Assembly: GCA_903970165.1 (NCBI GenBank)
Contig: CAJCHZ010000054.1
Coordinates: forward strand, 124,001 to 188,000
Origin: Betaproteobacteria bacterium
Lineage (GTDB): Bacteria > Acidobacteriota > Terriglobia > Acidiferrales > UBA7541
Length of the DNA: 64,000 nucleotides
Reading direction: 5' to 3'
Under the pieces are notes generated by a model, which made no database searches, was not told the origin of the DNA, and worked only from the letters and a program-made list of their open reading frames with translations. Both the position numbers and the translations under genes were made by a program. Positions within the stretch are counted from its first letter, which is position 1. Each line of letters starts with the position of its first letter. Below, one piece after another: positions 31,360 to 45,508 of this stretch.

Positions 31360-32034
31360 TTATTTCGTATCCCAACACAGAAAACTGTTGAGGGCAGGCT
31401 TGTGTTTCCGTTCGATGTACCGCCGCAGATAGCGTCTGGCGTGGAAAGTCCGCGCCTTAACGGCGGACACTGTCAGGCCCAGTCGACGGGCGGTTTCAGC
31501 ACTCGTCAGGCCCTGGAACTCGCGAAGGAAGATAACCACACGTAAGTTTTTTCGAAGGCGCGAAATCGCATGCATTACGACCGCACGCAGCTCGTTTTCG
31601 GCAAGAGCCTCTTCCGGCGATGGCCCTCTATCCGCCAAAGCAATTTCGGAAACATCTTCGGTGTCGCCGTTGTCGTTTCCCGGGAGAAGTGTATTTCCCC
31701 GCCTCTGGCGGAGCAGCATTAGCGCTTCATTGATGGCTATGCGTGTGACCCACGTTGAAAAAGTCGAATCCTCCCGAAATCTGGAAAGATTTATTAAAGC
31801 ACGTTGAAAAGCACGCTGAACTGCATCCTCAGCATCTTGTTCATTGCGAAGGACGCGGAAGACAGTGCGGTAAACCCTTCGGTGATGCCGTTCGTACAGT
31901 TCTCCCAAAGCGACCGACGACCCGGATTTTGCTTCTGCCACGAGAACCGCGTCGCAATCCGATGCGAGCGCCGGAAAATCCATCGGCGAGCAGTTTACCG
32001 GCGCGCTGCTTTTTGAATTTTCTTGGATGTTCAT
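31360..32034 (-). CDS. ECF-type RNA polymerase sigma factor
   Basis: A 224-residue sigma-70-family protein. Sigma-2 region (about 40-105): L-Y-E-R-H-H-R-R-V-Y-R, the Q-D-A-E-D-A-V-Q promoter-melting helix and F-S-T-W-V-T-R-I-A-I-N-E-A. Sigma-4 region (about 150-210): L-T-S-A-E-T-A-R-R-L-G-L-T-V-S-A-V-K-A-R recognises the -35 element. No anti-sigma gene lies next to it, so its control is not evident. It resembles the ECF gene at 49888-50490 in the F-S-T-W-x-x-R-I-A-I-N-E-A block but is clearly divergent. It is transcribed away from the enoyl-CoA hydratase gene. Confidence 0.92.
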   Translation of the reverse strand: MNIQENSKSSAPVNCSPMDFPALASDCDAVLVAEAKSGSSVALGELYERHHRRVYRTVFRVLRNEQDAEDAVQRAFQRALINLSRFREDSTFSTWVTRIAINEALMLLRQRRGNTLLPGNDNGDTEDVSEIALADRGPSPEEALAENELRAVVMHAISRLRKNLRVVIFLREFQGLTSAETARRLGLTVSAVKARTFHARRYLRRYIERKHKPALNSFLCWDTK

Positions 32035-32418
32035 ATTTTGTCCTCTTCTTCTCGCAATCTTTAGATTTGTTTGTTAGCGAGATTTCATGGTGGAGAATGC
32101 GCCACATCGCGAGTGCTCGTAAATTGTGCTTTGGTATGGGTCCGGCGACATTCGCGGTGGCCCGGAGCTGTAGCCCTGTTTCTCGTGGGACTTGCTCAGT
32201 GTGCCGATGGATGTGAACAAAATTGGAATGCTTTTGCTGCGCGACTGATACCAAGGTATTGCCAATACCTTCGTCCAATTGTTTTGCTACGGCACTGCAG
32301 GCTTAATCGCGACTGGGCGAAACGCGAGCCAAACGTATCGCAAGAAGCAGTCCAGATCTCTAGAACGCGCAGGGCCATCACCCGGTTTAGAAGAATCGCA
32401 AATACGAAGGAGAATTCC
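32035..32418. other. Divergent intergenic region with palindromic element
   Basis: This 384-bp region separates the leftward ECF gene from the rightward enoyl-CoA hydratase gene. The hydratase frame is open back to 32071, but codon content and the strong ribosome site at 32419 argue that this part is untranslated leader. It contains the palindrome at 32247-32273 described separately. Confidence 0.5.
32247..32273 (+). promoter_or_regulatory. Operator-like palindrome shared with 40909-40936
   Basis: The core is a perfect 9+1+9 palindrome (AAGGTATTG, one C, CAATACCTT) at 32253-32271, preceded by GATACC, which adds a second, overlapping ATACC/GGTAT repeat. It ends 145 nt before the hydratase ATG. 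Nearly the same 27-28 bases occur, in the same orientation relative to the gene, upstream of the VOC gene at 40234-40719. Probably a repressor or activator binding site; the regulator is unknown and no matching regulator gene is adjacent. Confidence 0.6.
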
Positions 32419-33276
32419 ATGACCACTGCAAACGCACCCTCGAAATCCGCACAGCTCCGCGTGACCCGGCGATCACCCGCCTACTGGCGCGTCACCTTCG
32501 ACAATCCACCGATCAACGTCATGGGCCCGGAAATGGTTCGGCAGTTCCAGGAAGTCATTAACGCAATTGAGGCCGACGAACAGCTCAGGGTCGTGGTCTT
32601 CGACAGCGCGGTCGACGGCTTCTTCCTGAATCACTCCGATTTCGAGGCCAAGCTCGAAGATCTGACTGCACTGCCGGCCGGCCCAACAGGTCTGCCGCCG
32701 TGGCCGGACTTTCTTGTGCGACTGCCCCGCGTCCCTGTCGCTTCCATCGCCCTCATCCGCGGTCGGGCCACGGGCAACGGGAGCGAGATCACGCTTGCCT
32801 GCGACATGAGTTTCGCCAGCCGCGAAAAAGCGATCCTCTCGCAATGGGAGGTGGGTGTGGGGATGGTCCCCGGAGGCGGCCCCATGGCTCGGCTGCCCCA
32901 ACTCATCGGCCGAAACCGAGCTCTCGAAGTGCTCCTGAGCTCAGAAGACATCACGGCGGAGCAGGCCGAGGACTACGGCTATGTAAATCGCGCTCTGCCC
33001 GACACCGAGCTGGACCCATTCGTCGAATCCCTTGCGACCCGCATCGCCAAGTTCGACAAATGGGCGATCGCGAACGCCAAGCGCCTCGTCAACACCAGCC
33101 TGCCGCCGGATGTCGAGATCGGCGCCGGGTGGGATGCATGCATTGCTTCGCTCGGGCGACCCGCCGCGCAGGATAGGATCAAGGCGTTGATCGCGAAGGG
33201 CTTCCACAAGCCGGGGGATGTCGAAAATCGGCTCGGATACTACATCGGCCAAATCGCGCGCCAGGCCGGCGCTTGA
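32419..33276 (+). CDS. Enoyl-CoA hydratase/isomerase family protein
   Basis: A 285-residue crotonase-fold protein. The oxyanion/active-site helix has G-R-A-T-G-N-G-S-E-I-T-L-A-C-D, whose Glu matches the first catalytic Glu. S-Q-W-E-V-G-V-G-M-V-P-G-G-G supplies the second. The first oxyanion-hole segment is altered (F-F-L-N-H-S-D-F in place of F-x-A-G-A-D), so a true hydratase activity on fatty acyl-CoA is uncertain. The family includes hydratases, isomerases, dehalogenases and hydrolases. The start ATG at 32419 has AAGGAG 6 nt upstream; the longer frame from 32071 is rejected. The upstream palindrome points to induced expression. Confidence 0.86.
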   Translation: MTTANAPSKSAQLRVTRRSPAYWRVTFDNPPINVMGPEMVRQFQEVINAIEADEQLRVVVFDSAVDGFFLNHSDFEAKLEDLTALPAGPTGLPPWPDFLVRLPRVPVASIALIRGRATGNGSEITLACDMSFASREKAILSQWEVGVGMVPGGGPMARLPQLIGRNRALEVLLSSEDITAEQAEDYGYVNRALPDTELDPFVESLATRIAKFDKWAIANAKRLVNTSLPPDVEIGAGWDACIASLGRPAAQDRIKALIAKGFHKPGDVENRLGYYIGQIARQAGA

Positions 33277-33698
33277 CTCGTTTTTCATGCCCTTCTGATT
33301 GGACGAACCGGACGAAATTCGAGAATCTAGTCAACGATAGGCGTCGTTCCGAATTCAGGGCACGGCCATGTCTTCATGACCAGCGGCGGCGCTATATATA
33401 TAATGTCCGATGTCCGTGGCAGGCCTCGTCGCTATCAGGTGCAGCCACCCTGGTTCAGACATAGCCGTCCTCTCTTCGATCTATGATAAGTTATTTAGAA
33501 TCAACACTTGCGAGCCTATCCCCGTAAATGCTTCGTTATTAAGGCTTTAGGTTGTCTGCGGGCCCGCAATTTTTGTAAGTGCTGTATTTAAAAGAGTTAG
33601 TTGAGCGGTAAGCTTGGCAAAACTACGGGCTCTGGGGGCACGACGGCAGCACCGGGGCGGAACCCTTGCCGCTGTGAGTGCCAATGGAAAAACTAAAG
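33277..33698. other. Intergenic region, no gene seen
   Basis: This 422-bp stretch lies between the convergent hydratase and FixJ-like genes. A 12-bp GC-rich palindrome (TGCGGGCCCGCA at 33557-33568) is followed by ATTTTT, but its stem has almost no loop, so I do not call it a terminator. A short TA-rich run (TATATATATA near 33395) is also present. Confidence 0.35.
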
Positions 33699-34466
33699 CT
33701 AATGAGTCCGAGACGGGAACACACTGAAAACAACGGGCGAAACAGTATTCTTCCTTGGTCGCGGATGTGCGACACCGAGTCTCGCGGCCATTTGCACCAA
33801 GTCAGGGAGGGAGTCCGCTTTCATTTTTACCATCACCTGGCCGCGGTGCGCCTTCACCGTGATCTCGCTAATGCCGAGTTCCCCACCAACCTGTTTATTT
33901 AACAAGCCGGCGACCACCAGGGCCATAACCTCGCGTTCGCGGCGGGTGAGCGACGCGAAGCAATCGCGGAGTTCCTGCATCTCGGTCTCACGAGCAAGAG
34001 TAACGCGGCTGCGTTCCAGGGCCTCCTGCATCGCATTCAACAGCACCTCATCATCGAATGGTTTCATCAAGAACTCCAGAGCGCCAGCCTTCATCGCCTG
34101 CACGGTCGTTGGCACGTCGCCCCGACTCGTGATGCAGATAATCGGCATATCGGTGCGTTCAACGGCAATCCGCTTTTGCAATTCGAGGCTATCGAAGCCT
34201 GGAATAGAAACGTCGAGCACGAGGCAGCAGGGAACAACGGTTCGTGGACGCTTCAGGAATTCTTGCGAGGTCGCGAATGTCTCCGGTTTCCAGCCCTGGC
34301 ATCGAATCAGCAACTCCAGCGACGCGCGCACCGCGGCGTCCTCGTCAACCACAAACACGATTGGAGTGACGAGCGGCCCGGGTGAAAATTTCAATTCGTG
34401 GCTGAATACATGCGCTAAACTCATGGTGCGTGCTCCCGAAATCTCTGCTTTTGCGGTCGAATGCAT
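33699..34466 (-). CDS. FixJ-like response regulator (receiver + LuxR HTH)
   Basis: A 255-residue regulator. The receiver domain (about 34-150) has V-D-E-D-A acidic residues, phospho-acceptor Asp in C-L-V-L-D-V-S-I-P-G, Thr/Ser in C-I-T-S-R-G-D and Lys in M-K-P-F-D. The LuxR-type helix-turn-helix (about 175-235) has L-T-R-R-E-R-E-V-M, N-K-Q-V-G-G-E-L-G-I-S-E-I-T-V-K-A-H-R-G. Usually the first acidic pair is D-D; here it is D-E, which is tolerated. AAGGAGTGAGCT precedes the ATG. The HTH is almost identical to that of 41296-41970, so both may bind the same sites. No kinase gene is adjacent. Confidence 0.9.
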   Translation of the reverse strand: MHSTAKAEISGARTMSLAHVFSHELKFSPGPLVTPIVFVVDEDAAVRASLELLIRCQGWKPETFATSQEFLKRPRTVVPCCLVLDVSIPGFDSLELQKRIAVERTDMPIICITSRGDVPTTVQAMKAGALEFLMKPFDDEVLLNAMQEALERSRVTLARETEMQELRDCFASLTRREREVMALVVAGLLNKQVGGELGISEITVKAHRGQVMVKMKADSLPDLVQMAARLGVAHPRPRKNTVSPVVFSVFPSRTH

Positions 34467-34531
34467 AGCTCACTCCTTAAGCTGCCCTCTTTGAAAGTTG
34501 CGCTCCCTGATGGTGCTTCTAGTCCCGGAAT

Positions 34532-34735
34532 TTAGCGTCCGAGCCACAGCGCATATCGAATCGCCTGGAACAACGGCCACGGATAATGCGCTCGCAAGAT
34601 GCGATACCAGCCGAGGATGGACGGCAGTTTCACGTTTGTGGCTTCCACGCCATTGTTTGCAATGACGAGTGTGCCTGCGCTTTGTGGATGCGAAAATGAC
34701 TGAACTGCGCTGAGATTTTCCATAACAACCCCCAT
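34532..34735 (-). CDS. Small conserved-looking protein (67 residues), function unknown
   Basis: A short frame that ends G-W-Y-R-I-L-R-A-H-Y-P-W and A-I-R-Y-A-L-W-L-G-R. The aromatic/basic amphipathic C-terminus has the look of small acidobacterial proteins of unknown function. It could start at 34735 (M-G-V-V) or 34723 (M-E-N-L, preceded by GGGGGT). A longer frame to 34834 has poor composition upstream. It sits just before the FixJ-like gene on the same strand. I cannot name a function. Confidence 0.45.
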   Translation of the reverse strand: MGVVMENLSAVQSFSHPQSAGTLVIANNGVEATNVKLPSILGWYRILRAHYPWPLFQAIRYALWLGR

Positions 34736-34938
34736 ATAACCTGCTGCAACAACATGAGGCGCTCGGTAAAATGAAGCGCTTACTGATTCTCGGGCTGATG
34801 AGTGGCACTCACGCTTTCTCGAGAACGCGCTCATTGTGAAATGTACGACGTCGCCGGCACAACCCCAATTGGTTGGCTTTTGAGGTAGATGGATAGTGAG
34901 AAGCGACGCTAACGCTTTGGGGGGATAGAACAGGTCTA

Positions 34939-35310
34939 CTAATCGCCGACGGCGATGTGCTTCCGGCCAAAAAGCCGTGCATCAATCGACCACGCACCGG
35001 GACCGATCATCGCCAAAGTGATGCCGAGCGCCGCCAAGATAATGGAAATCCATGGATCACCAGAGTGCGCGAACGCGATCCACAACTCGATGAGGGCAAG
35101 AAACATTCCCGCCAGCGGCGTCCACAGACCGATGAGCAACAGCAGCCCCGCGCCCGCTCCAATCATTTGGGGCAAAGCTGTCGCAAACTCAGTCGAGGCT
35201 CTTACAGACACGATCGCGTAATGAAAGAGCGCGATAGCGACCAGAGTCCGTTGTAGCAAAAGACCGAGGCCGGGCCAGCCATCGGCGAAGGTTGAGAATA
35301 AGCGCTGCAA
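34939..35310 (-). CDS. DoxX family membrane protein
   Basis: A 123-residue integral membrane protein with about four hydrophobic segments (near residues 15-35, 45-65, 68-85 and 90-110). It has the DoxX pattern of an early Arg/Thr (L-L-Q-R-T-L-V-A), a small-residue-rich second helix (G-A-G-A-G-L-L-L-L-I-G-L-W-T-P) and an F-A-H-S-G-D-P loop. DoxX-like proteins in bacteria are linked to quinone, thiosulfate or redox stress roles, but the function here is not defined. It lies upstream of the small 34532 gene and downstream of the NarL-like gene, all minus strand. Confidence 0.82.
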   Translation of the reverse strand: MQRLFSTFADGWPGLGLLLQRTLVAIALFHYAIVSVRASTEFATALPQMIGAGAGLLLLIGLWTPLAGMFLALIELWIAFAHSGDPWISIILAALGITLAMIGPGAWSIDARLFGRKHIAVGD

Positions 35311-35416
35311 AAGTCCCTTTCTTTATGCTTCATGATAGGGAATGTGCCACACGAGCCGAAACACCTGAAAGAGGGATTATGTGGTCCATCGAAAGTAGGG
35401 TGGCATGCTCCTCCTT

Positions 35417-36058
35417 TTAGGAGGCATGCAGGTCTATAATTCCGCGCTTTAGCCCAATCGTGACAGCATGGGCCCGGTCATTAGCCCCCAGCTTGGAAAG
35501 GATGTTGGTGACGTGGCTCTTGACGGTCGCTTCGCCAATCGAAAGTTGATCGGCTATCTGTTTGTTCGCATTCCCGCTGGCAATGAGCCGAAGTACTTCG
35601 ATTTCCCGTGTTGTCAGAGCGTCATCCATGGTGTGCTCGGCTAACTCCGTCGCGACATCCGCGGGTATGCGCTTTTGTCCGGCGTGCACGGCGCGGATAG
35701 TCTCCAGCAGCTCTCTATGTACGTGTCCCTTCAACACGTAACCTTGGGCGCCAGTTTTAAGGGCCCGCAAGACTTGAACGTCGCCCGTATACGTCGTCAG
35801 CACAATAATTCGCGCATTGGGGAACTCGCTACGGATGCTGGTGATCGCTTCCGTACCACCTAAATCTGGCATTTGAAGATCCATCAAGGTGACATCCGGT
35901 CGATGCAATCGGAACATTGCGATGGCTTCGCGTCCATTGGACGCTTCCGCAACCAACTTCATGTCTGGTTCCGCATTAACGAGCGCCGCGATTCCCCTGC
36001 GAAGCAGTGGATGGTCGTCGACGGTGAGGATGCGGATCAGGCCGGGATCGTTTGTCAT
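35417..36058 (-). CDS. NarL-like response regulator
   Basis: A 213-residue regulator. The receiver has V-D-D-H-P-L-L-R-R-G, Asp in T-L-M-D-L-Q-M-P, Thr in V-L-T-T-Y-T and Lys in V-L-K-G. The LuxR HTH has L-T-x-R-E-I-E-V-L-R-L-I-A-S-G-N-A-N-K-Q-I-A, with E-A-T-V-K-S-H-V. It starts 6 nt after the stop of the propeller-type sensor kinase (36065-39088), so they form a cognate pair in one operon. It presumably acts as a transcription activator when phosphorylated; targets unknown. Confidence 0.93.
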   Translation of the reverse strand: MTNDPGLIRILTVDDHPLLRRGIAALVNAEPDMKLVAEASNGREAIAMFRLHRPDVTLMDLQMPDLGGTEAITSIRSEFPNARIIVLTTYTGDVQVLRALKTGAQGYVLKGHVHRELLETIRAVHAGQKRIPADVATELAEHTMDDALTTREIEVLRLIASGNANKQIADQLSIGEATVKSHVTNILSKLGANDRAHAVTIGLKRGIIDLHAS

Positions 36059-36064
36059 AGCTTT

Positions 36065-39000
36065 TCACCGCCAGAACAGTTTGAACCGGGAGCCTCTCGG
36101 CGAAGTCTTGTACGCAACGGCAGCAGGAACGGCTACCTGAATTTCGGTGCCGGCTCCCATTTCGCTCCAGAGATCCAATCGCGCTCCAATTTGCTGGGCT
36201 CTTTCCCGGACACCGCGCAACCCCCAGTGTCCGGCGCTGCCGCCTTCCTCCAGGACCTTTGGATCCAAGCCCTTTCCATCATCGCGGATCCGCAACCGAA
36301 GCGCCTGATCATCGTAGCGGATCTCAGCCTCGATCCGATGTGCCTGCGCGTGGCGAAAAGCGTTTCTTAAGATTTCTTGCGCTATCCGGCAAATCTCGCT
36401 CTGGAGAACCGGAGTCAGAGTTCGCCGTTCACCCTCTACGATCACGCGGAATACCGGCGAATCACCTTTTGCATTCTGAGCATTCGTCAGCTCCTGTCCC
36501 ATGGCCGTCAGCAATTCTGCCAGATCGCTTTGAGCAATGTTTTCCGAACGTAGGTCTTGAATAGCACCCCTGCTCTCGGTGATTGCTTGCTCGGTTGCAT
36601 TGATGGCCCCATCGAGAGCCTGCATGGCTTCCTCCGGCCGGCGTGGAAGCATGTTGCGGGCCGCCTGAAATTGAAACATTAGTCCGTGAAAGCTTTGCAG
36701 CAGCGTATCGTGCAGTTCTCGCGCGATGCGCGTGCGCTCGTTGACGCGCGCTTCCAGGCCCACGTTGAACTGACGATGGAGTTGCTGCAGGCGAGTTCGA
36801 TACAAGCCCACAACGATCAGCAAGAGCGCCACAATGCTGACAATCTGGAACCACCGAGTCTGCCAGTATGCAGGCTCGACCTGGAAAGCCATTGTGGTTT
36901 CGTCTGTGCTCCAGACACCGTCCGGATTACGCGCCACTACGTGGAATTGCAATTTTCCAGGCGGAACATTTGTGTAGTCAATTTCGCGCAACGCCGTTGG
37001 CTCGCTCCATGCCGAATCGACAGTGTCCAACCGATAGCGATATCTCACACCATCGGGATTCGACACATTCACGCCGGCGTAGCGGAACGTTAAGCGGTGC
37101 CGGCCTGGGGGAATCCGAATCCCGTCGGCCGACGCGACGAATGTTCCATCGACGACAATGCCGTCGACACGAGTCGTTACCGGAAAGGCCGGGGCAGCAA
37201 ACGCTGATGGCTGCAAAACCGAGATGCCACGATTCAGCGAGAACCACAGCTGGCCGCGACTGTCTTCAACCAACGAAGGACTCCTCTTCACGCCTTCGGT
37301 GCTCGGTAACCCCTCACTGGCTCCAAACTCACGGTAATCTTCTTCCTTATACGCTTGCTTTAGCAGGGCGGCAGCCTTGGTCCGTAAAACGTGATCGCGA
37401 GTGGTGATCCACAGCCAACCATTGCTCTCGCCAATGCCCAAAATCTCTCCGTAAAGCGCGTTCGGTGCGCCGATGGGAACGTGCACAGCGCCAGACTGGA
37501 GAAACGCGATGCCCTTTGATGTTCCAATCCACAACGTATTTGCCTGATCCAGAAAAAGGCTTTGCACTGGGCCCGGCGGCAAGCCGTCGCGAGCGGTGTA
37601 AGCAAGCCACTGGTTATTCTTGAATATGGCAAGACCGTTCGGTGTGCCCAAAAAAATATTTCCGGCAGCATCCCCGGTAATCACGGAAATCCTGTCCGAA
37701 GGCAAACCGTCGCGAGCCGTGTAGGTGCGCCATTTTGTGCCATCGAAGCGGCTGAGTCCTGCGTCAAGCGTTCCGGCCCAAACGCTCCCGTCCGCTGCCC
37801 GGTAGATGGAATCAACGGCGTCTTGTGCGAGCCCATTTCGTCGGGTATATGTAGTGGCTTGCATAGAATCGTTTTGTAAAAAGAGGCGAGTCACGCCACC
37901 GTACTTTCGAGCCACCCACACTTCATTACGTGCGCCTCCCGCAATGGAATAAGCCGTGTCGTTCATCAGGCCCGCGGCTTCAATCCGCTCCAGCTTGCCC
38001 TGCGAAAGCCGATACAATCCTCCGTCCCACGGGGCAAACCAAACGCGCTGCTGCGGATCCACGTAAATCGCTCCGCTATTATTGGAAGGCAGACCATCGG
38101 AACTCAAATAGGTCGTAAACCCACTATCGCGGTAGCGTTCAATGCTCTCTGTTCCGCCAATCCACAGATTTGCGTCGCGGTCTTCGAACAATGCGGTTAC
38201 CGTAGTGTTCAGATTCAGGTGATCGAGAGAATCGATTCGTCCATCCTGTTGTATGTCTTTCGCGTGTGCCTTGAAGAGATGACCGCCAGTGGCAATCCAC
38301 ACGTCTCCATGCTGACCGTTAGCGAGCGCCAGGATTTCGGCATCTCCGAGTTGGGAAGCCGAACTCGGCGCCAGTTTACCGTCATGGAGACTGAATAGAC
38401 CCTTCTCTGTCCCAATCAAGAGCGTTGAAGGCCCAAGCGGGAGCAGACAGTTGATCTTCAAATTTCCAAGATCGGGCACATGCTCAATTTTTCCGACGCC
38501 GCGCGTCACGTTGACGCGAAATAAACCTGTTTCCAGGGTGCCGATCCAGAAGGTGCCGTCGCCCGTTTGCGCTACAGCCATGGGCCAGTTCGGAAGCGGC
38601 CCCGGATCCAGAAGGGTCCGGAGCTGCCCTCGCTCATACTCCACTAGTCCCTGCACCTTAGAAACGAAGAGAAGCCAACCATCGCGGGTTCGATTGACGG
38701 AAGCTTTCAGATACTGGTGTCTGCCATTGTCGGATATGGGCCCGACAAGCCCGCCATTCGCGAAACGAAAGAGATGCGTGTGGTCATCGACAGCCCATAA
38801 CTGGTCGCTGGAGTCCGTGATTACGGCCAGAACGGGAAACCCTGCATTCGTATCGTTCCAGCGAACGGGGACGAAATTGAGACCGTCGTACCTGAGCAAG
38901 CCCTTGCTTGTGCCAATCCACAGATAGCCATCCGATGTTTGCGCCATGGAATATGCATATCCGATTGGAAAACCGGCTGCGGCCTTCCAACTTTCGTGGC

Positions 39001-39088
39001 TGTGGCTGGGCATGATCTGATTCTGCGGCGCACCCAGGACCGAATTGGATGACAGGAGCAGCATTACGATCAGGAAACGGCGCGACAT
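36065..39088 (-). CDS. Two-component sensor: Reg_prop beta-propeller, Y_Y_Y domain, HisKA_3 kinase
   Basis: A membrane sensor of 1,007 residues. After a signal sequence (M-S-R-R-F-L-I-V-M-L-L-L) come about 14 repeats of the type D-G-L-P-S-D-R-I / G-x-x-W-I-G-T, forming a periplasmic beta-propeller (about 25-640). A Y_Y_Y domain (F-R-Y-A-G-V-N-V-S-N-P) is next, then one transmembrane helix near residue 745-770. The cytoplasmic kinase has phospho-acceptor His in I-A-R-E-L-H-D-T-L-L-Q-S, and an HATPase with D-D-G-K-G-L-D and G-L-R-G-V-R-E-R-A. I start at 39088, since the longer frame overlaps the upstream gene. Its partner is the NarL-like regulator just downstream. The ligand is unknown, perhaps a carbohydrate. 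Confidence 0.92.
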   Translation of the reverse strand: MSRRFLIVMLLLSSNSVLGAPQNQIMPSHSHESWKAAAGFPIGYAYSMAQTSDGYLWIGTSKGLLRYDGLNFVPVRWNDTNAGFPVLAVITDSSDQLWAVDDHTHLFRFANGGLVGPISDNGRHQYLKASVNRTRDGWLLFVSKVQGLVEYERGQLRTLLDPGPLPNWPMAVAQTGDGTFWIGTLETGLFRVNVTRGVGKIEHVPDLGNLKINCLLPLGPSTLLIGTEKGLFSLHDGKLAPSSASQLGDAEILALANGQHGDVWIATGGHLFKAHAKDIQQDGRIDSLDHLNLNTTVTALFEDRDANLWIGGTESIERYRDSGFTTYLSSDGLPSNNSGAIYVDPQQRVWFAPWDGGLYRLSQGKLERIEAAGLMNDTAYSIAGGARNEVWVARKYGGVTRLFLQNDSMQATTYTRRNGLAQDAVDSIYRAADGSVWAGTLDAGLSRFDGTKWRTYTARDGLPSDRISVITGDAAGNIFLGTPNGLAIFKNNQWLAYTARDGLPPGPVQSLFLDQANTLWIGTSKGIAFLQSGAVHVPIGAPNALYGEILGIGESNGWLWITTRDHVLRTKAAALLKQAYKEEDYREFGASEGLPSTEGVKRSPSLVEDSRGQLWFSLNRGISVLQPSAFAAPAFPVTTRVDGIVVDGTFVASADGIRIPPGRHRLTFRYAGVNVSNPDGVRYRYRLDTVDSAWSEPTALREIDYTNVPPGKLQFHVVARNPDGVWSTDETTMAFQVEPAYWQTRWFQIVSIVALLLIVVGLYRTRLQQLHRQFNVGLEARVNERTRIARELHDTLLQSFHGLMFQFQAARNMLPRRPEEAMQALDGAINATEQAITESRGAIQDLRSENIAQSDLAELLTAMGQELTNAQNAKGDSPVFRVIVEGERRTLTPVLQSEICRIAQEILRNAFRHAQAHRIEAEIRYDDQALRLRIRDDGKGLDPKVLEEGGSAGHWGLRGVRERAQQIGARLDLWSEMGAGTEIQVAVPAAVAYKTSPRGSRFKLFWR

Positions 39089-39110
39089 TGGACGGCAAAA
39101 CCTCCGGAAT

Positions 39111-40175
39111 CTAGGGCAAGAATTCAAACCGATCCACGACAACTTCGGCGGGACGTTGAAGACCGGAAGACGCAAGGTTTGGAATCCGGTAGACATACAG
39201 CGTCAGGCGAAGTGACTCAAATCCGGGTGTAGGAACATCAGACGTAAATGCGTGTCTGGCTACGAACGAGGCGTTTGGCGATTCAGACGGGCGCGATGCA
39301 CTCATGGTTAGCCGGCCGGGTTCCCAGGCAATGGTGTACTTCAGTTTGCCGCGCGGCGCCATAAAGCGTGTGACGTTGGCCGCAACGAAAGGCGGCTGCA
39401 AAACAAACTCGGCGTTCTGATTCTCCGGGTCACCCCAGCGGCCGATGTCAATGTCAAATTCGCGGTGGTTCTCGCTATCCGTTGAATAGTCCCAGGTGAA
39501 AATGCCGAACGTCACGGACGGATCCAGCTTGGAAGTGTCTTCGACTGTAAACGTGTAAGTGCCATAGCCGAGGCTGCGCGTCAGGTTTATCTCTGAACAG
39601 GTCCACTGCTGGTCGCGGTTGATGATGCGCAGATGAAGGGCACCCGCTTGGTCTGTATATACATTGTCGGGATCGTAGCGATTGTTCGTCCCACCTCGAT
39701 CGCTGGGTTTCTTCCGTACGCGCCACGTGTACCCACTAAAGTCGACGAAGAACGATGAGGATTTTTCCTGGCCCGGGCTGACGGCGACGGCTGAAACCGC
39801 CGATCCTGGTTTCGGCAGTCGATCCAGGACGGCCGCCGGTTGGTAGGAGGGGTCCACGAGCAAGACGGCGTAATCGGTACCGAGGTGCGTTTCATTCCGC
39901 CAGACCTGGTCGGGCAAAATGGGCGTGTATGGCGCAGTGAGCAAAGGTTGCACCCACCACAATCCTCCGGATTTGGAATAGATGACCATGCGCTGCCCAG
40001 GTCGCGCGCCGCTTACCGTTCCTTCCATTACGTCTTGCAAGTTTCTATCTCCCGGGTTCGACTGAGGCACTTGAGTGAATGAGATTTTGGCTTCGACGTC
40101 CTGCTTCGTTCCACGGTGGCAACCAACCAGCGATGCGAAAAGGGCGATCAGGATCAGGATGGCGGAAGGAGCCAT
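39111..40175 (-). CDS. Lipoprotein with GH16-like beta-sandwich domain
   Basis: A lipoprotein of about 354 residues. Its signal sequence ends in lipobox S-L-V-G-C (start at 40175; a longer frame to 40232 lacks a signal). The C-terminal half (about 170-345) resembles a concanavalin-like GH16 fold: L-G-Y-G-T-Y-T-F-T-V, F-G-I-F-T-W-D, then E-F-D-I-D-I-G-R-W-G. In active GH16 enzymes that strand reads E-x-D-x-E. Here the third acid is Asp, so catalysis may be altered or lost and a binding role is possible. It sits 22 nt upstream of the propeller sensor, suggesting it helps present or sense a polysaccharide. Confidence 0.75.
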   Translation of the reverse strand: MAPSAILILIALFASLVGCHRGTKQDVEAKISFTQVPQSNPGDRNLQDVMEGTVSGARPGQRMVIYSKSGGLWWVQPLLTAPYTPILPDQVWRNETHLGTDYAVLLVDPSYQPAAVLDRLPKPGSAVSAVAVSPGQEKSSSFFVDFSGYTWRVRKKPSDRGGTNNRYDPDNVYTDQAGALHLRIINRDQQWTCSEINLTRSLGYGTYTFTVEDTSKLDPSVTFGIFTWDYSTDSENHREFDIDIGRWGDPENQNAEFVLQPPFVAANVTRFMAPRGKLKYTIAWEPGRLTMSASRPSESPNASFVARHAFTSDVPTPGFESLRLTLYVYRIPNLASSGLQRPAEVVVDRFEFLP

Positions 40176-40233
40176 CCCGTCCTTCCGCGGCTGATATCGC
40201 TCCGCTCCCGGGGGCGACTGGCACCTCGACATA

Positions 40234-40719
40234 CTAAGCTTTCATCTCTTTCCCGGAAATTTGCAGATCAAATCCGTTTGGATCTTCGACGTGGAAACTA
40301 TTTTCGGTATCCGGTTTTGGGTTCAGGCCGCGGCGCTTCAGCTCAACTTCGACAGCGTGTTTGTCCCAGTTTGCAATGGTGTAGGCGATGTGATCGACGC
40401 GAGGCGTGTTCCCGGATTTGTTTCGCGGAATAAGAAAGGTATCTCCAAACGCAAGGAAACATTGACTTCCGTCGTCCTGTGAAACTTTCATTCCAAAAAG
40501 ATCTGCGTAGAAGTCACGCGTTTTGGCGTAGTCTGCAACCTGATAAGAAATGTGATTGACGGCAATCGCTTTGAACCCTGTGTTCGAGGCTGCAGTAGCT
40601 GGGGCCGGGCCGGCAACAGACGCCGCCGTTGCGGTTACCGCCAGACTCTTGATGAGCTGTCTCCGGCTCAGCTTTCCCTTTTCAAAATCCTGTAGAAGCC
40701 TTGCGATGATCCGTTCCAT
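40234..40719 (-). CDS. VOC (glyoxalase/bleomycin-resistance) family protein with Tat-type signal
   Basis: A 161-residue protein. The N-terminus has a twin-arginine motif (S-R-R-Q-L-I-K-S-L-A) followed by a hydrophobic A-V-T-A-T-A-A-S-V-A, which predicts Tat export. The rest is a VOC domain: N-H-I-S-Y-Q-V-A-D-Y-A-K-T-R-D-F-Y, then R-V-D-H-I-A-Y-T-I and F-H-V-E-D-P-N-G-F-D-L-Q. His, His and Glu positions could bind a metal. The substrate is unknown. Its promoter region holds the palindrome at 40909-40936, also found before the enoyl-CoA hydratase gene, so the two may be co-regulated. It is followed 58 nt later by the GH16-like lipoprotein gene. Confidence 0.85.
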   Translation of the reverse strand: MERIIARLLQDFEKGKLSRRQLIKSLAVTATAASVAGPAPATAASNTGFKAIAVNHISYQVADYAKTRDFYADLFGMKVSQDDGSQCFLAFGDTFLIPRNKSGNTPRVDHIAYTIANWDKHAVEVELKRRGLNPKPDTENSFHVEDPNGFDLQISGKEMKA

Positions 40720-41043
40720 TTTAGAATCCCCTCTCGATCAAAGTTACGATTGGCGATACATGGCGAAGCGAGAGTTTATCTTGCGCAACGATTCTGGCGT
40801 GATTTTTTGTGCTGGCGGCTCGGCGACCAAACAACCCTGATATGTCACTCCCGGACTCCGGCACATCTTGCGCGATTTAGCCAGCATGGCGGGCGAAAAA
40901 CAATTGAACTAAGGTATTGGTCGATACCTTAGTATCGGGGCGCAAATTCGATCACAAAGACGGCATCGTTTTACTCTTCGCGTTTATCTAATTGACGGGG
41001 AAATAGGCGTTGGGCACACCGTAAGCGATTAAGGAGCGGAGTC
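40720..41043. other. Divergent intergenic region with palindromic element
   Basis: This 324-bp gap lies between the leftward VOC gene and the rightward 75-residue protein gene. The only distinct signal is the palindrome at 40909-40936. A possible promoter for 41044 must lie to its right. Confidence 0.45.
40909..40936 (-). promoter_or_regulatory. Operator-like palindrome shared with 32247-32273
   Basis: The arms CTAAGGTAT and ATACCTTAG are separated by 6 nt (40909-40932). Read on the minus strand the element continues to GATAC at its 5' end and then aligns with the 32247-32273 site, with 3 substitutions and one extra base. It lies 189 nt upstream of the VOC gene start (minus) and 107 nt before the ATG of the 41044 gene (plus). 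Confidence 0.6.
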
Positions 41044-41295: not shown

Positions 41296-41970
41296 TCAAG
41301 CTCTCGGAGGGGAATGCATCCCGAGCTTGGCCGCCATCTTTACCAGATCCGCCAAGGAATCGGCCTTCATTTTCTGCATTACCTTGCCGCGGTGGGCTTT
41401 AACGGTGATCTCGCTGATCTCTAATTCTCCGCCGACCTGCTTGTTCAAGAGACCTGAGACTACTAACTTCATGACCTGCTGTTCGCGAGGAGTGAGTGAC
41501 GCGTAACGGTCTCGTAAGAACTGCGTCTCGGCCGTTTGGCTGAGAGAACTGCGGCTCCGTTCAAGCGCATTGCGGATAGCGTCCAGCAGCACGTCATCAG
41601 GGAAGGGCTTGGTCAGAAATTCGACGGCTCCGGCTTTCATCGCTTGGACTGACTTGCGTATGTCTCCGTGTCCGGTGATGAAAATGATAGGCATTTCAGG
41701 ACGTTTACCGACGATGCGCTCCTGCAGTTCGAGACCGTTTAGCCCTGGGAGAGAAATGTCCAAAACAAGGCAACTGGGGACGGCAATGGGCGGATGCTCG
41801 AGGAATACATTCGCTGAAGCGAACAACTCAGGATGCCAGCCCGCTGATTGAATCAGCAGTTCCAATGATTCGCGGACAGAGATGTCGTCATCAACGACGA
41901 ACACGATGGACTTTGGGGGCAGCATGGTTGGGGGCCCCATCTTACGCTCCACGACATTGGCTAGCGTCAT
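41296..41970 (-). CDS. FixJ-like response regulator
   Basis: A 224-residue regulator. The receiver has F-V-V-D-D-D-I-S-V-R-E, Asp in C-L-V-L-D-I-S-L-P-G, Thr in F-I-T-G-H-G-D-I and Lys in L-T-K-P-F. The LuxR HTH has L-T-P-R-E-Q-Q-V-M, N-K-Q-V-G-G-E-L-E-I-S-E-I-T-V-K-A-H-R. It is the last gene of the MEDS-kinase-receiver-FixJ cassette on the minus strand, 30 nt after the stand-alone receiver, and is the likely transcription output of that cassette. It is closely related to 33699-34466. Confidence 0.92.
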   Translation of the reverse strand: MTLANVVERKMGPPTMLPPKSIVFVVDDDISVRESLELLIQSAGWHPELFASANVFLEHPPIAVPSCLVLDISLPGLNGLELQERIVGKRPEMPIIFITGHGDIRKSVQAMKAGAVEFLTKPFPDDVLLDAIRNALERSRSSLSQTAETQFLRDRYASLTPREQQVMKLVVSGLLNKQVGGELEISEITVKAHRGKVMQKMKADSLADLVKMAAKLGMHSPPRA

Positions 41971-42000: not shown

Positions 42001-42369
42001 TCAGTCGCTTCCCATTGCCTTGTGCAGCGCCTGGCGGAGCGCCGTGTCGCTGAATGGCTTGAAAAGTATATCCACCGCTCCCTGTTCGAGCACCCGCTTA
42101 CGGATGGACTCATCTCTTTTGCCGGTAATAAAGATGATCGGAATCTTGTCTCCTCGACCCTTAAGTTCCTTTTGTAAGTCGAGTCCATTCATGCCCGGCA
42201 TGGCGATGTCGAGAACCAGGCAGCTGGTTCGTGCCGTGCTACCAGATGCGAGGAACTCCTCCGCCGAAGAGAATGTGAGGACCGCAAAACCAAATTCCTT
42301 CAGTAGGTCAGGAAGCGATTCGCGCACCGATTCATCGTCATCCACGACGACTACGACAAGCTTATCCAT
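42001..42369 (-). CDS. Stand-alone receiver-domain protein
   Basis: 122 residues: one complete receiver domain and nothing else. V-V-D-D-D-E-S-V-R-E, Asp in C-L-V-L-D-I-A-M-P-G, Thr in I-F-I-T-G-K-R and Lys in L-F-K-P-F are all present, so phosphorylation is expected. Single-domain receivers relay phosphate, act as a phosphate sink or allosterically adjust the kinase. It lies between the PAS kinase and the FixJ-like regulator. Confidence 0.9.
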   Translation of the reverse strand: MDKLVVVVVDDDESVRESLPDLLKEFGFAVLTFSSAEEFLASGSTARTSCLVLDIAMPGMNGLDLQKELKGRGDKIPIIFITGKRDESIRKRVLEQGAVDILFKPFSDTALRQALHKAMGSD

Positions 42370-42438: not shown

Positions 42439-44598
42439 TTAGGTATTAGTACTGGAAGGAAGGACAAATGAAAATGTCGCTCCCGGGCCCTCGTTCCGAG
42501 CCGCCCAGAGGCGACCTTGATGGCTTTCCATGATGGACCGGCTGACGGAAAGGCCAATTCCCATGCCGTCACCCTTTGTCGTATGGAAGGGTTCGAAAAG
42601 CTTCTCCTCAATCTGAGGGTCTATCCCCACTCCCGAATCTGTCACGCTCAGGCGAGCTCCGCCGCCTTCGTCGCGTTCTGTCATAACCAGCAATTCCCGT
42701 TGGCGATCCTCAACCGTGCTCATGGCATCTAAACCGTTCCGTATCAGATTCAGAATGACTTGTTGAACCTGAATCCGATCACCCAGGACGGAAGGCAAAT
42801 CGGTCGCAAGGTTTGACTGTAAGGTGACCCTATTCCGCTGCAGCTCACTCACCGAGAGCGCAATCACTTCCTGGGCCGCCTCATTCAAATCGAATAATTC
42901 GAATGGCGTACTCTTTTTGCCGAATAGGGCGCGCAGCCGTGTGATCACGTCAGAGGCACGATTGCCGTCGCGAATCGTACGTCTCGCAGTTTCGCGCGCG
43001 CCTTCCACGTTAGGAGGATCGGCATCCAGCATCCGAAGGCATGTACTTGCATTAGTGACGATGCCGGACAGCGGCTGGTTGACCTCGTGGGCAATCGAAG
43101 CCGTTAAAGCACTCAAGGCCGTTACTCGCGCGACATGCGCGAGTTCCGAGCGAGCCTTATCGAGCGCCGCCTCGGCCAAGTGACGCCTGGTCACATCTTC
43201 GGAGAGCGCCAAAAGGAATCGCGGCACTCGGTCGGAGCCGGACACCACGGAAACACTGTTACGCACCGATACCAGGCTGCCGTTCTTCCGTCGATACTGC
43301 TTCTCAATCTCGAATTCACGGCGCTTTCCGTCCAAAAGGTCCGCGACGAGCGCGCTATTGAGATCGCGATCTTCTTCAACGGTGATGTCGAGAAAATGAA
43401 GCTGTTCGAATTCCTGTTCTGTGTATCCCAGCATTTTCTGGAACACGGGGTTTGTGGCAATAAATCGGCCTTCCAAGTCGGCCAGCGCAACGCCGATTGC
43501 TGAGCTCTCGAACACCGACCGCCACCGTTCTTCGCTCTGCGCCAGTCTTGTGTGGGCCTCAAGTAATGCATCTTCGTTTTGCTTGCGTGCCGTGATGTCA
43601 CGCAGATAGCCAGTGAAGGAAGGAGGCCCGTCCTGCTGGATACGCGCGATCGCTATTTCCACGGGAATTTCTCTTCCGTCAGCACAGAGGGCAGTCATCT
43701 CAAGGCGCTTGCCCAGCACTCGCGATTCGCCGGTGGCCAGGTGATGGGCGAATCCCAAATGGTGCTGCTGACGGAGCGACGGCGGTATGAGAACGTGAGC
43801 TAAGGGCTTGCCCAGGACGTTCTCCCTCTTGTATCCGAAGACGCGTTCCGCTGCTGGGTTAAATTCAGTGATGCAACCCTGGTGGTCCATGGCTACGATA
43901 CAGTCAAGTGAAGAGTCTAGAATCGCTGCCTTATGTGCCTGGCTTCGTTTGAGTTCGGTTTCTTCTCGTAGGAACTTTTCTTCTGCAGATTTGCGTTCGG
44001 CAATTTCTCTTTGTAATTCGTCATTGATCGCAGCGAGATCCGCGGTTCGCTGTGCGACTCGCCGATCCAGTTCGCTCGAGACGCGTCGCTCCTCACTCAG
44101 GAGGCTTGCTTCTCTCAGCCAAACGGCAGCCTCGTTTGCCGCCACGTTCAAAAGGAGTCTTTCGGTTTGTTGAGGAAAATCCGATCTCCGGGAACCTGCA
44201 ATGATGATCCCCAGGTCGTCATGCAATCCAAGTCGCAAGGGCACTAACGTAATGTCGCCCTCCACAAAAAAATTACTTAGCAGCAGCGGCGATTCTTGAA
44301 AGTCATCATCCACCGATGTCCTGAGTCTTTCCCCCATCTCTTGCGGTCCGGGTTTGACGGCCCACGTCGGGCTTATTCGGACCATTTCTCCGGTCGCTGC
44401 GTCCGCCGTGTTCTTCAACCGCACATAGAGAAAATCCAGGCTGAGCATGCTCAGTAATGCGTCGAGCAGATTGCCCATAATCCGCAATGGTTCGCCACCC
44501 ATCCAAGCGGCTGGAAGGGCCAGCATGCTCACCAAATCATTGATGCAGCGCCGAAGTCCCTTGATCTCTTCGGCGGAGCCTTCGGATTGTGCTGCCAT
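42439..44598 (-). CDS. PAS-domain sensor histidine kinase (FixL/NtrB-like)
   Basis: A soluble kinase of 719 residues. Order: an N-terminal GAF-like region (about 20-190), a short coiled-coil (D-E-L-Q-R-E-I-A-E-R-K-S), PAS 1 (L-D-C-I-V-A-M-D-H-Q-G, about 240-355), PAS 2 (F-E-S-S-A-I-G-V-A-L-A, about 375-490), HisKA with His in S-I-A-H-E-V-N-Q-P-L, and HATPase (N-L-I-R-N-G-L-D-A, D-S-G-V-G-I-D, G-M-G-I-G-L-S). No heme-binding His pattern is evident in the PAS domains, so oxygen sensing is unproven. ATG at 44598 is 1 nt after the MEDS gene stop; the longer frame starts with TTG at 44709 and overlaps that gene. Confidence 0.9.
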   Translation of the reverse strand: MAAQSEGSAEEIKGLRRCINDLVSMLALPAAWMGGEPLRIMGNLLDALLSMLSLDFLYVRLKNTADAATGEMVRISPTWAVKPGPQEMGERLRTSVDDDFQESPLLLSNFFVEGDITLVPLRLGLHDDLGIIIAGSRRSDFPQQTERLLLNVAANEAAVWLREASLLSEERRVSSELDRRVAQRTADLAAINDELQREIAERKSAEEKFLREETELKRSQAHKAAILDSSLDCIVAMDHQGCITEFNPAAERVFGYKRENVLGKPLAHVLIPPSLRQQHHLGFAHHLATGESRVLGKRLEMTALCADGREIPVEIAIARIQQDGPPSFTGYLRDITARKQNEDALLEAHTRLAQSEERWRSVFESSAIGVALADLEGRFIATNPVFQKMLGYTEQEFEQLHFLDITVEEDRDLNSALVADLLDGKRREFEIEKQYRRKNGSLVSVRNSVSVVSGSDRVPRFLLALSEDVTRRHLAEAALDKARSELAHVARVTALSALTASIAHEVNQPLSGIVTNASTCLRMLDADPPNVEGARETARRTIRDGNRASDVITRLRALFGKKSTPFELFDLNEAAQEVIALSVSELQRNRVTLQSNLATDLPSVLGDRIQVQQVILNLIRNGLDAMSTVEDRQRELLVMTERDEGGGARLSVTDSGVGIDPQIEEKLFEPFHTTKGDGMGIGLSVSRSIMESHQGRLWAARNEGPGATFSFVLPSSTNT

Positions 44599-44599
44599 T

Positions 44600-45253
44600 T
44601 TAGTTTCCAGCTGAGGCGGATGCGCCACGCCCGGCTTGGCGTCCGCGGAACTCTCGAAGAAATTCTCCCGGTGGGACGAAGAAGGGACTTCGTTGCAGGA
44701 TTCCGCCAATGATGATCATCGGATGCGTTCGCATAATATCGATCACCGTGTCCCCGCCAAATTTTCCGAGATAGTAGGTGCAGATCACGGCGTCATCGTG
44801 GTGCTCCCAAACGTCATTTACCCGTGACTCGAATTCAATCAGATCATGGATATGGGATTTTCCTTCCGCCGCCCAGTCCATCCGGCAAACGATTCGGCTG
44901 AGCGGAAAACCTCCGGCAGCCTTGCCGCTGGCGATCTGTTTAAACGCATGCAGCATGCGGTCCTGATCGAACGATCCATCTTGAAGGTATATTTCCCTGT
45001 TAATTCGGAGATCGAATTGGCCGTTGCGCTCCGCGGCGGCGGAGTCGATGCCCGCGGCGGCCAGCCGGCGAAGGTGTTCGCTTCGTTGGTCTGGGTTAAC
45101 GACGTGAACAGCTTTGTGGCCGCATTCGAACCCTTCCTTAATAAAGGGAAGCAATACGCGATATTCTTCCTCTTCGCTATGGAAAAATGCACAAACGTGT
45201 CGGGTTTCTGCGAGCTGGGAACCTGCAAAAGAAATAGGGGACGTGGTCTTCAT
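44600..45253 (-). CDS. MEDS (DcmR-like sensory) domain protein
   Basis: A 217-residue cytoplasmic protein consisting of one MEDS domain. R-H-V-C-A-F-F-H-S-E-E-E-E-Y opens it; L-P-F-I-K-E-G-F-E-C-G-H-K-A-V-H-V-V, L-R-R-L-A-A-A-G-I-D and F-D-Q-D-R-M-L follow. The MEDS family was defined from methanogen/methylotroph regulators such as DcmR and is thought to sense small molecules. Here it directly precedes a PAS histidine kinase, so it probably feeds a signal into that kinase. It starts at the ATG at 45253, with AAGGA 7 nt upstream; the frame to 45280 is extra. First gene of a four-gene signalling cassette. Confidence 0.88.
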   Translation of the reverse strand: MKTTSPISFAGSQLAETRHVCAFFHSEEEEYRVLLPFIKEGFECGHKAVHVVNPDQRSEHLRRLAAAGIDSAAAERNGQFDLRINREIYLQDGSFDQDRMLHAFKQIASGKAAGGFPLSRIVCRMDWAAEGKSHIHDLIEFESRVNDVWEHHDDAVICTYYLGKFGGDTVIDIMRTHPMIIIGGILQRSPFFVPPGEFLREFRGRQAGRGASASAGN

Positions 45254-45508
45254 GACGCAGTCCTTCCCAAGGAGGTCCATCTAGAAAATGGATTTCCACA
45301 CTACCTCACTATGAAGATTGGTTCAACCGCTATGAGAAGGAGACCCACCATCCCTTGCGGTCGCTGGCAGCGGTTCGGAACCCGGAGAGCCACTTGTGCG
45401 CAAGGGTTTAGCGGGGAAATACATGAGTCACCGTCCCCAATTTAGAGGAATGCCAGTATTGATGACGGTCAAGCGCGCTGGCAACCTAACCCGGATAAAG
45501 GGGGATTG

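Follow-up and report, generated by a model that had tools for sequence, protein, structure and literature searches.

A putative two-component promoter-operator element shared by an acidobacterial gene block and plasmid loci of rhizobia and Burkholderiaceae

Two copies of an element in one gene block

The window, by which we mean the whole 64,000-nucleotide stretch analyzed here (contig CAJCHZ010000054.1 of assembly GCA_903970165.1, positions 124,001 to 188,000, assigned to the Acidobacteriota by GTDB lineage), contains two near-identical palindromic elements, each located upstream of a gene. Site 1 precedes a crotonase-type enoyl-CoA hydratase/isomerase gene, and site 2, on the opposite strand, precedes the gene of a protein with the vicinal oxygen chelate (VOC) fold (Table 1). 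A first-pass annotation, made from the sequence alone, had described the copies as differing by three bases and one insertion and as lying 145 and 189 nt before their genes, which agrees with our direct reading (ATG at 32419 and at 40719, respectively). It had also considered a chance origin unlikely, and the counts bear this out: AAGGTAT-N2-10-ATACCTT is present at two positions of the window and absent from all 100 dinucleotide shuffles. A genome search of the kind that it proposed, run over the whole assembly (5.6 Mb in 131 contigs, 94% complete), finds the pattern at two places only and its backward control nowhere.

Two of the earlier statements require amendment. The palindrome itself stands, but the element does not end at CCTT, as the sequence shared by the two copies runs on to about 70 bp in all. 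The two genes had also been called unlinked; the sites are in fact about 8.6 kb apart within one block, which also encodes two closely related FixJ-type regulators, both combining a receiver (Response_reg) with a LuxR/GerE-type DNA-binding domain. One of them (41296-41970) is the last gene of a row that comprises a MEDS-domain protein, a PAS kinase, a receiver and the regulator. Not noticed in the first-pass annotation were the core-promoter part of the element, the presence of its likely regulators within the block, and its conservation in more than one phylum.

Table 1. Positions of the two sites and of the surrounding genes, numbered from the first letter of the window
Feature	Position	Strand	Evidence
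Site 1 palindrome, GATACCAAGGTATTGCCAATACCTTCG	32247-32273	+	sequence read directly
Site 1 box 1, ATAC-N4-GTAT	32248..32259	+	sequence and site alignment
Site 1 box 2, ATAC-N4-GTCC; spacer to box 1 of 5 nt	32265..32276	+	sequence and site alignment
Site 1 presumed core promoter: TTGTTT 32279-32284, 17 nt, CTTAAT 32302-32307 after AGG	32279..32307	+	function inferred
Crotonase-type enoyl-CoA hydratase/isomerase, gene after site 1	32419..33276	+	Pfam ECH_1, E 3e-27
Site 2 palindrome, GATACTAAGGTATCGACCAATACCTTAG	40936-40909	-	sequence read directly
Site 2 box 1, ATAC-N4-GTAT	40924..40935	-	sequence and site alignment
Site 2 box 2, ATAC-N4-GTTC; spacer to box 1 of 6 nt	40906..40917	-	sequence and site alignment
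Site 2 presumed core promoter: TTGTTT 40903-40898, 17 nt, CTAAAT 40880-40875 after TGG	40875..40903	-	function inferred
VOC/glyoxalase-fold protein, gene after site 2	40234..40719	-	Pfam Glyoxalase, E 3e-7
FixJ/StyR-type response regulator, helix TVKAHRG, best candidate reader	41296..41970	-	Pfam Response_reg and GerE
Second regulator of the same subfamily, TVKAHRG, 64% identity to 41296-41970	33699..34466	-	Pfam Response_reg and GerE
Single receiver domain, between kinase and regulator genes	42001..42369	-	Pfam Response_reg
PAS sensor histidine kinase, partner presumed from gene order; start of reading frame uncertain	42439..44709	-	
MEDS-domain protein heading the row	44600..45280	-	Pfam MEDS, E 4e-42
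ECF sigma factor gene adjoining site 1	31360-32034		
NarL-type regulator	35417-36058		

Architecture, placement and target genes of the extended element

In both copies, CAATTGTT and a -10-like box follow at a constant distance, so that each has the appearance of a complete promoter-operator of about 70 bp. The shared continuation after the palindrome reads ATACCTT-mGTyCAATTGTTTT, and nGGCTwAATCGCG begins 17 nt after TTGTTT. A scan of 89 genomes of the family with the palindrome alone matched four, one of these matches (genome G079, locus L005) lying within a long open reading frame (ORF) and being read as chance; the backward control matched in one other of the 89. In two relatives found by the palindrome alone (G012 and G077), it is again followed by CGTCCAATTGTTTT. 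Since the exact palindrome is too strict, the extended element was used instead.

The pattern GGTAT-N4-6-ATACCTT-NNTNCAATTG, scanned over genome contigs, returned 20 stretches, 12 of them from Acidobacteriota by title. The columns that this pattern leaves free are strongly conserved in the 12 acidobacterial sites and the two window sites (AA 14/14, AC 13/14, GTCC or GTTC 14/14, TGG 9/14, AT 11/14), whereas in the eight other stretches AA, AC, GTCC/GTTC and AT each score 0/8 and TGG 1/8. These eight, five of which share one similar context, were excluded from the model, and the 14 sites, aligned over 73 columns, yielded a profile of 72 positions (R1). In the window, R1 recovers both sites at E 2e-18 and 4e-18 and the opposite-strand readings of the same palindromes at about 1e-5; nothing else falls below E 2, and no site precedes the window's own kinase row. 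Elsewhere in this genome, R1 matches contig C130 at 975-1025 (E 1.6e-8) and, more weakly, at 1062-1119 (E 0.005), between a transketolase-like ORF and an ORF that we recognized by eye as crotonase-like.

Across the 89 family genomes, 39 carry an R1 match at E<=1, and nine (G000, G012, G019, G026, G034, G067, G073, G077, G079) hold copies below 1e-6. At the level of the class, with scoring of the top 12 candidates in each genome, R1 matches 40 of 399 genomes at E<=0.001; in four of them the matches number at least 10 when those on the opposite strand are counted. For placement and consensus, 101 sites from 34 genomes were taken out of 184 matches, namely all those of at least 27.9 bits except two opposite-strand overlaps (L198 and L217) and two short matches (L217 and L164). 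For 97 of the 101, an ORF on the same strand begins no more than 450 nt downstream, the median distance from the match end being 61 nt. The first-pass annotation had named copies confined to promoters as support and copies scattered in coding sequence as refutation, and the sites tend toward the former. When 101 positions were drawn at random from the same loci 200 times, an average of 57.8 (never fewer than 47) fell deep within an ORF, whereas only 12/101 sites do; a gene start follows closely for 72/101 sites, while the draws average 21.7 and do not exceed 33. All these figures are rough because the ORF calls are mechanical.

The consensus over 100 of the 101 sites is GATACGAAGGTAT, 5 or 6 nt, ATACCWTCGTCCAATTGTTTC, about 10 nt and TTCTGGYNTAATCGC, with the proviso that the sites had been chosen with R1, which biases them toward it. 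The central spacer measures 5 nt in 53 sites and 6 nt in 47, with a single site at 4 nt (lengths of 4 and 7 being penalized in the scoring script), both main lengths co-occur in one genome, and the flanking parts keep their spacing. An AC-N4-GT core is retained in 70/86 dereplicated sites for box 1 and in 84/86 for box 2, and box 1 agrees with the reverse complement of box 2 at 7.9/12 positions, compared with 6.4/12 for box 2 as it stands. Because the center varies while the flanking spacing is constant, we read the element as two mutually inverted AC-N4-GT units. The alternative is that one dimer, repressing or activating, occupies the 19/20-bp palindrome AAGGTAT-N5/6-ATACCTT, with the outer AC and GTCC letters in a secondary role. 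What weighs for it, and against the paired boxes, is that the palindrome is the most symmetric part of the element, at 5.3/7 positions compared with 3.6/6 within box 1 and 2.7/6 within box 2; the two center lengths with fixed flanks and the retention of both AC-N4-GT cores speak against it, and we consider a single-dimer palindrome unlikely.

Downstream of the paired boxes, TTGTTT, 17 nt and TGG-YNTAAT stand at a constant distance in most sites, with a -10 that deviates from the sigma-70 consensus. If transcription is assumed to start 7 nt past the -10-like box, the center of box 2 is about 43 nt and that of box 1 about 60 nt upstream.

The 97 downstream proteins were clustered by BLAST, and the representatives were named by Pfam (27 of 30 proteins with a family, plus the window crotonase). 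The largest clusters are short-chain dehydrogenases/reductases (SDR; 12) and cytochrome P460 (12), followed by crotonase, extracytoplasmic function (ECF) sigma factors and epoxide hydrolase (6 each), DJ-1/PfpI and carbonic anhydrase (5 each), VOC proteins and flavin disulphide reductase (4 each), and FGE-sulfatase-domain proteins and outer-membrane efflux proteins (3 each). Four pairs (alpha/beta hydrolase, one with OsmC; transketolase; RidA; metallo-beta-lactamase fold) and 23 singletons, among them the window's VOC protein and perhaps some wrong ORFs, make up the rest. They include families associated with reactive aldehydes, epoxides, hydroperoxides and nitrogen compounds, and the likeliest role of the putative regulon, judged from its gene content, is a response to reactive small molecules.

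The ECF sigma genes recur both beside site 1 and among the downstream genes (L102, L163, L176, L200, L213, L214), which suggests a regulator-to-sigma cascade in some genomes. A histidine-specific methyltransferase (L097 5801-6925, G034) and an FGE-sulfatase-domain protein (L186 1104-2483, G261) also follow sites and are reminiscent of ergothioneine synthesis.

Association with a regulator subfamily in two phyla

The first-pass annotation had proposed one regulator with a small regulon and had suggested gene neighbourhood as a means of finding the protein. Both ideas gain support: the sites, mainly promoter-placed, recur across genomes beside one subfamily of FixJ/StyR-type regulators, to which both window regulators belong and which would bind them. 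Homologues of the regulator at E<=1e-55 occur in 72 of the 399 class genomes (seven candidates per genome scored), and those of at least 245 bits, a cut-off set after seeing the list, form the subfamily. A site is present in 22/23 genomes with the subfamily and in 18/376 others (Fisher p 3e-24, to be taken as a guide only, since the genomes are related and the cut-off is post hoc). At the level of genes, a site lies within 15 kb of 28/31 subfamily genes and of 4/86 other homologues.

The recognition helix points in the same direction. Among the 61 of 117 homologues covered by the helix test, mostly the best of each genome, 23/25 regulators with KAHRG or KTHRG have a site within 15 kb (KAHRG 20/22, KTHRG 3/3), compared with 1/36 of those with another helix, four of the 36 having no readable helix. 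This association is independent of the bits cut-off because the helix grouping does not use it; the regulator of G269, for instance, with 57% identity, falls outside the cut-off, yet it has KAHRG and a site within 15 kb. In the three KTHRG genomes (L138, L139 and L142 in G285, G246 and G281), the site is about 3.2 kb away and its outer letters are somewhat different, and a co-variation of helix and box is possible.

A second phylum shows the same association. Homologues of the regulator were found by tblastn on 421 plasmid records. Fourteen of these loci were sampled, each with 12-15 kb on either side, and four of the plasmids concerned also supplied one 40-kb control stretch each. At E<=1e-3, R1 detects the element in 7/14 loci, all seven with a KAHRG regulator: Cupriavidus KK10, Sinorhizobium fredii, S. 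meliloti, Mesorhizobium ciceri, Paraburkholderia PREW-6R (where the match spans box 2 and the promoter, not box 1), Rhizobium leguminosarum WSM1689 and Rhizobium T136. No match at E<=0.1 was obtained in the four control stretches or in the four loci without a KAHRG reading (in L224 no helix was read). By annotation, epoxide hydrolase genes follow sites in S. fredii and M. ciceri, as well as in R. leguminosarum, where the match has E 0.0015; a VOC gene also follows a site in S. fredii. OsmC-, SDR- and DJ-1-like targets were recognized by eye. The gene row kinase, receiver, regulator is found in S. fredii, M. ciceri and Caballeronia.

Several observations weigh against assigning the element to this subfamily. 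Only 65 of 133 distinct sites are within 15 kb of a subfamily gene; both the cut-off and the joint grouping of KTHRG with KAHRG were chosen post hoc, and the counts take related genomes as independent. When 14 of the 18 site-bearing genomes without a subfamily gene were searched again with all or nearly all candidates scored, six (G073, G077, G079, G155, G193, G365) gave no homologue at E<=1e-30, including three that are 98-100% complete (G155, G193 and G365), whose sites (L170, L174, L205) may be orphans or be read by another protein. Conversely, G025 has a KAHRG regulator and no site, the nearest site in G267 is 267 kb from the regulator, and of the 10 KAHRG plasmid loci, three fall short of E<=1e-3 (L223 reaches E 0.007, L158 E 0.013, and L221 has none). 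On balance, the distribution of sites and helices indicates that the neighbouring two-component regulator at 41296-41970 very probably reads the element.

Another regulator of the neighbourhood, either the ECF sigma factor or the NarL-type protein of the window, could be the reader, with the FixJ-type protein merely a neighbour. The ECF gene adjoins site 1, and such genes make up 6/97 of those downstream of sites. In the S. fredii, M. ciceri and R. leguminosarum loci, on the other hand, no sigma factor is annotated within 12-15 kb on either side (the annotation being incomplete), and it is the FixJ-type recognition helix that predicts the presence of a site; we judge this alternative improbable, a judgement drawn from the annotated plasmid loci only.

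A function of the palindrome as RNA, as a terminator or hairpin, appears highly improbable: the copies do fold (z -1.7 and -3.5) and site 2 is located on the strand of the regulator gene, about 360 nt past its end, but there is no Rfam family match, no same-strand gene ends just upstream of site 1, conservation extends well beyond the hairpin, and the sites are placed before genes. A mobile or chance repeat, compatible with only two exact copies in the genome, is equally remote, being contradicted by the absence of copies in shuffles and by the constant placement upstream of recurring gene families, in many genomes and in a second phylum.

Proposed regulation and relation to known systems

We therefore regard it as probable that the element is the operator and core promoter of a two-component regulon read by a KAHRG-type FixJ/StyR regulator. 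In this model, the PAS kinase and the adjoining receiver would presumably phosphorylate the regulator at 41296-41970 (with 33699-34466 as its paralogue), whose recognition helix is TVK-A-HR-G. The phosphorylated protein would bind the two AC-N4-GT boxes (consensus NNACGAWGGTAT and the inverted partner ATACCWTCGTCC, 5 or 6 nt apart), presumably as more than one dimer, at positions centered on about -60 and -43 from the presumed start. From there it would aid RNA polymerase at a weak sigma-70-like promoter (TTGTTT, 17 nt, TGG-YNTAAT), activating rather than repressing genes that appear to offer protection against reactive small molecules.

The solved structure nearest to the regulator is StyR (1yio, E 1e-57). 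Published work gives the StyR/TodT box as ATAAACN4GTTTAT, with contacts by Lys175, Val176 and His179 (PMC5874301), and describes activation by phosphorylated StyR from about -40 (PMC2442086). The StyR/TodT/TmoT systems of styrene and toluene catabolism share with the present element the AC-N4-GT core and the presence of multiple boxes per promoter. They differ from it in several respects: only AC-N4-GT is common to their box ATAAAC-N4-GTTTAT and to the ATAC-N4-GTAT / ATAC-N4-GTCC found here; in the alignment, Lys175, Val176 and His179 correspond to Lys, Ala and Gly in the window regulator, which places it outside the StyR/TodT group proper; the window kinase lacks the long TodS-type layout; and StyR/TodT target one catabolic operon, whereas the targets here are many small enzymes.

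The regulator fold is also like that of FixJ (5xso, E 3e-49) from the FixL/FixJ system, which controls nitrogen fixation genes in response to oxygen and has different targets. One PAS domain of the window kinase is closest to the heme PAS domain of FixL (E 5e-19). Aligned to FixL, it has a histidine in what we take to be the ligand region and a leucine at what we take to be the heme arginine position, and it is possible that the kinase is a heme sensor.

Bradyrhizobium japonicum offers a further parallel in EcfQ. Its peroxide-induced ECF sigma gene is located beside a response-regulator gene, conserved motifs upstream in the ecfQ region are attributed to an unknown factor, and the peroxide-induced genes include epoxide hydrolase and hydroperoxide-resistance genes (PMC3420878). 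As a precedent for the element itself, the ecfQ repeat was rejected, as TGTTTC-N17-GAAACA is unrelated to it in sequence. Among the papers listed by full-text searches of open-license literature, none, judged by title and the start of the abstract, described the element or the regulon.

The system would represent a StyR/FixJ-type regulon, a known type, with an unusual reach across phyla. A broader proposition, to which we give even weight for and against, is that one working unit recurs across phyla, in Acidobacteriota as in rhizobia and Burkholderiaceae, with interchangeable detoxification genes under the control of one KAHRG regulator and its paired-box promoter, and that a single helix residue (Ala/Thr, as opposed to Val, Ile or Leu in relatives; StyR position 176) sets the choice of box. 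If this is true, the DNA sequence of any genome would suffice to enumerate its regulon, and a single defined stress response would account for many unexplained gene clusters of soil bacteria that encode epoxide hydrolase, SDR, P460, DJ-1 and carbonic anhydrase. It would provide a readable address for a regulon common to Acidobacteriota and symbiotic rhizobia, join loosely annotated enzymes into one response, and offer a testable prediction, namely that the helix residue selects the box in FixJ/StyR-type regulators.

Two further features of the block deserve mention. The MEDS gene at 44600-45280 overlaps the start of the kinase ORF. Between the two sites, the region 35417-39196 encodes a beta-propeller (Reg_prop) kinase in addition to the NarL-type regulator, and a propeller ORF of a similar kind was recognized by eye near the subfamily regulator in G067 (L102).

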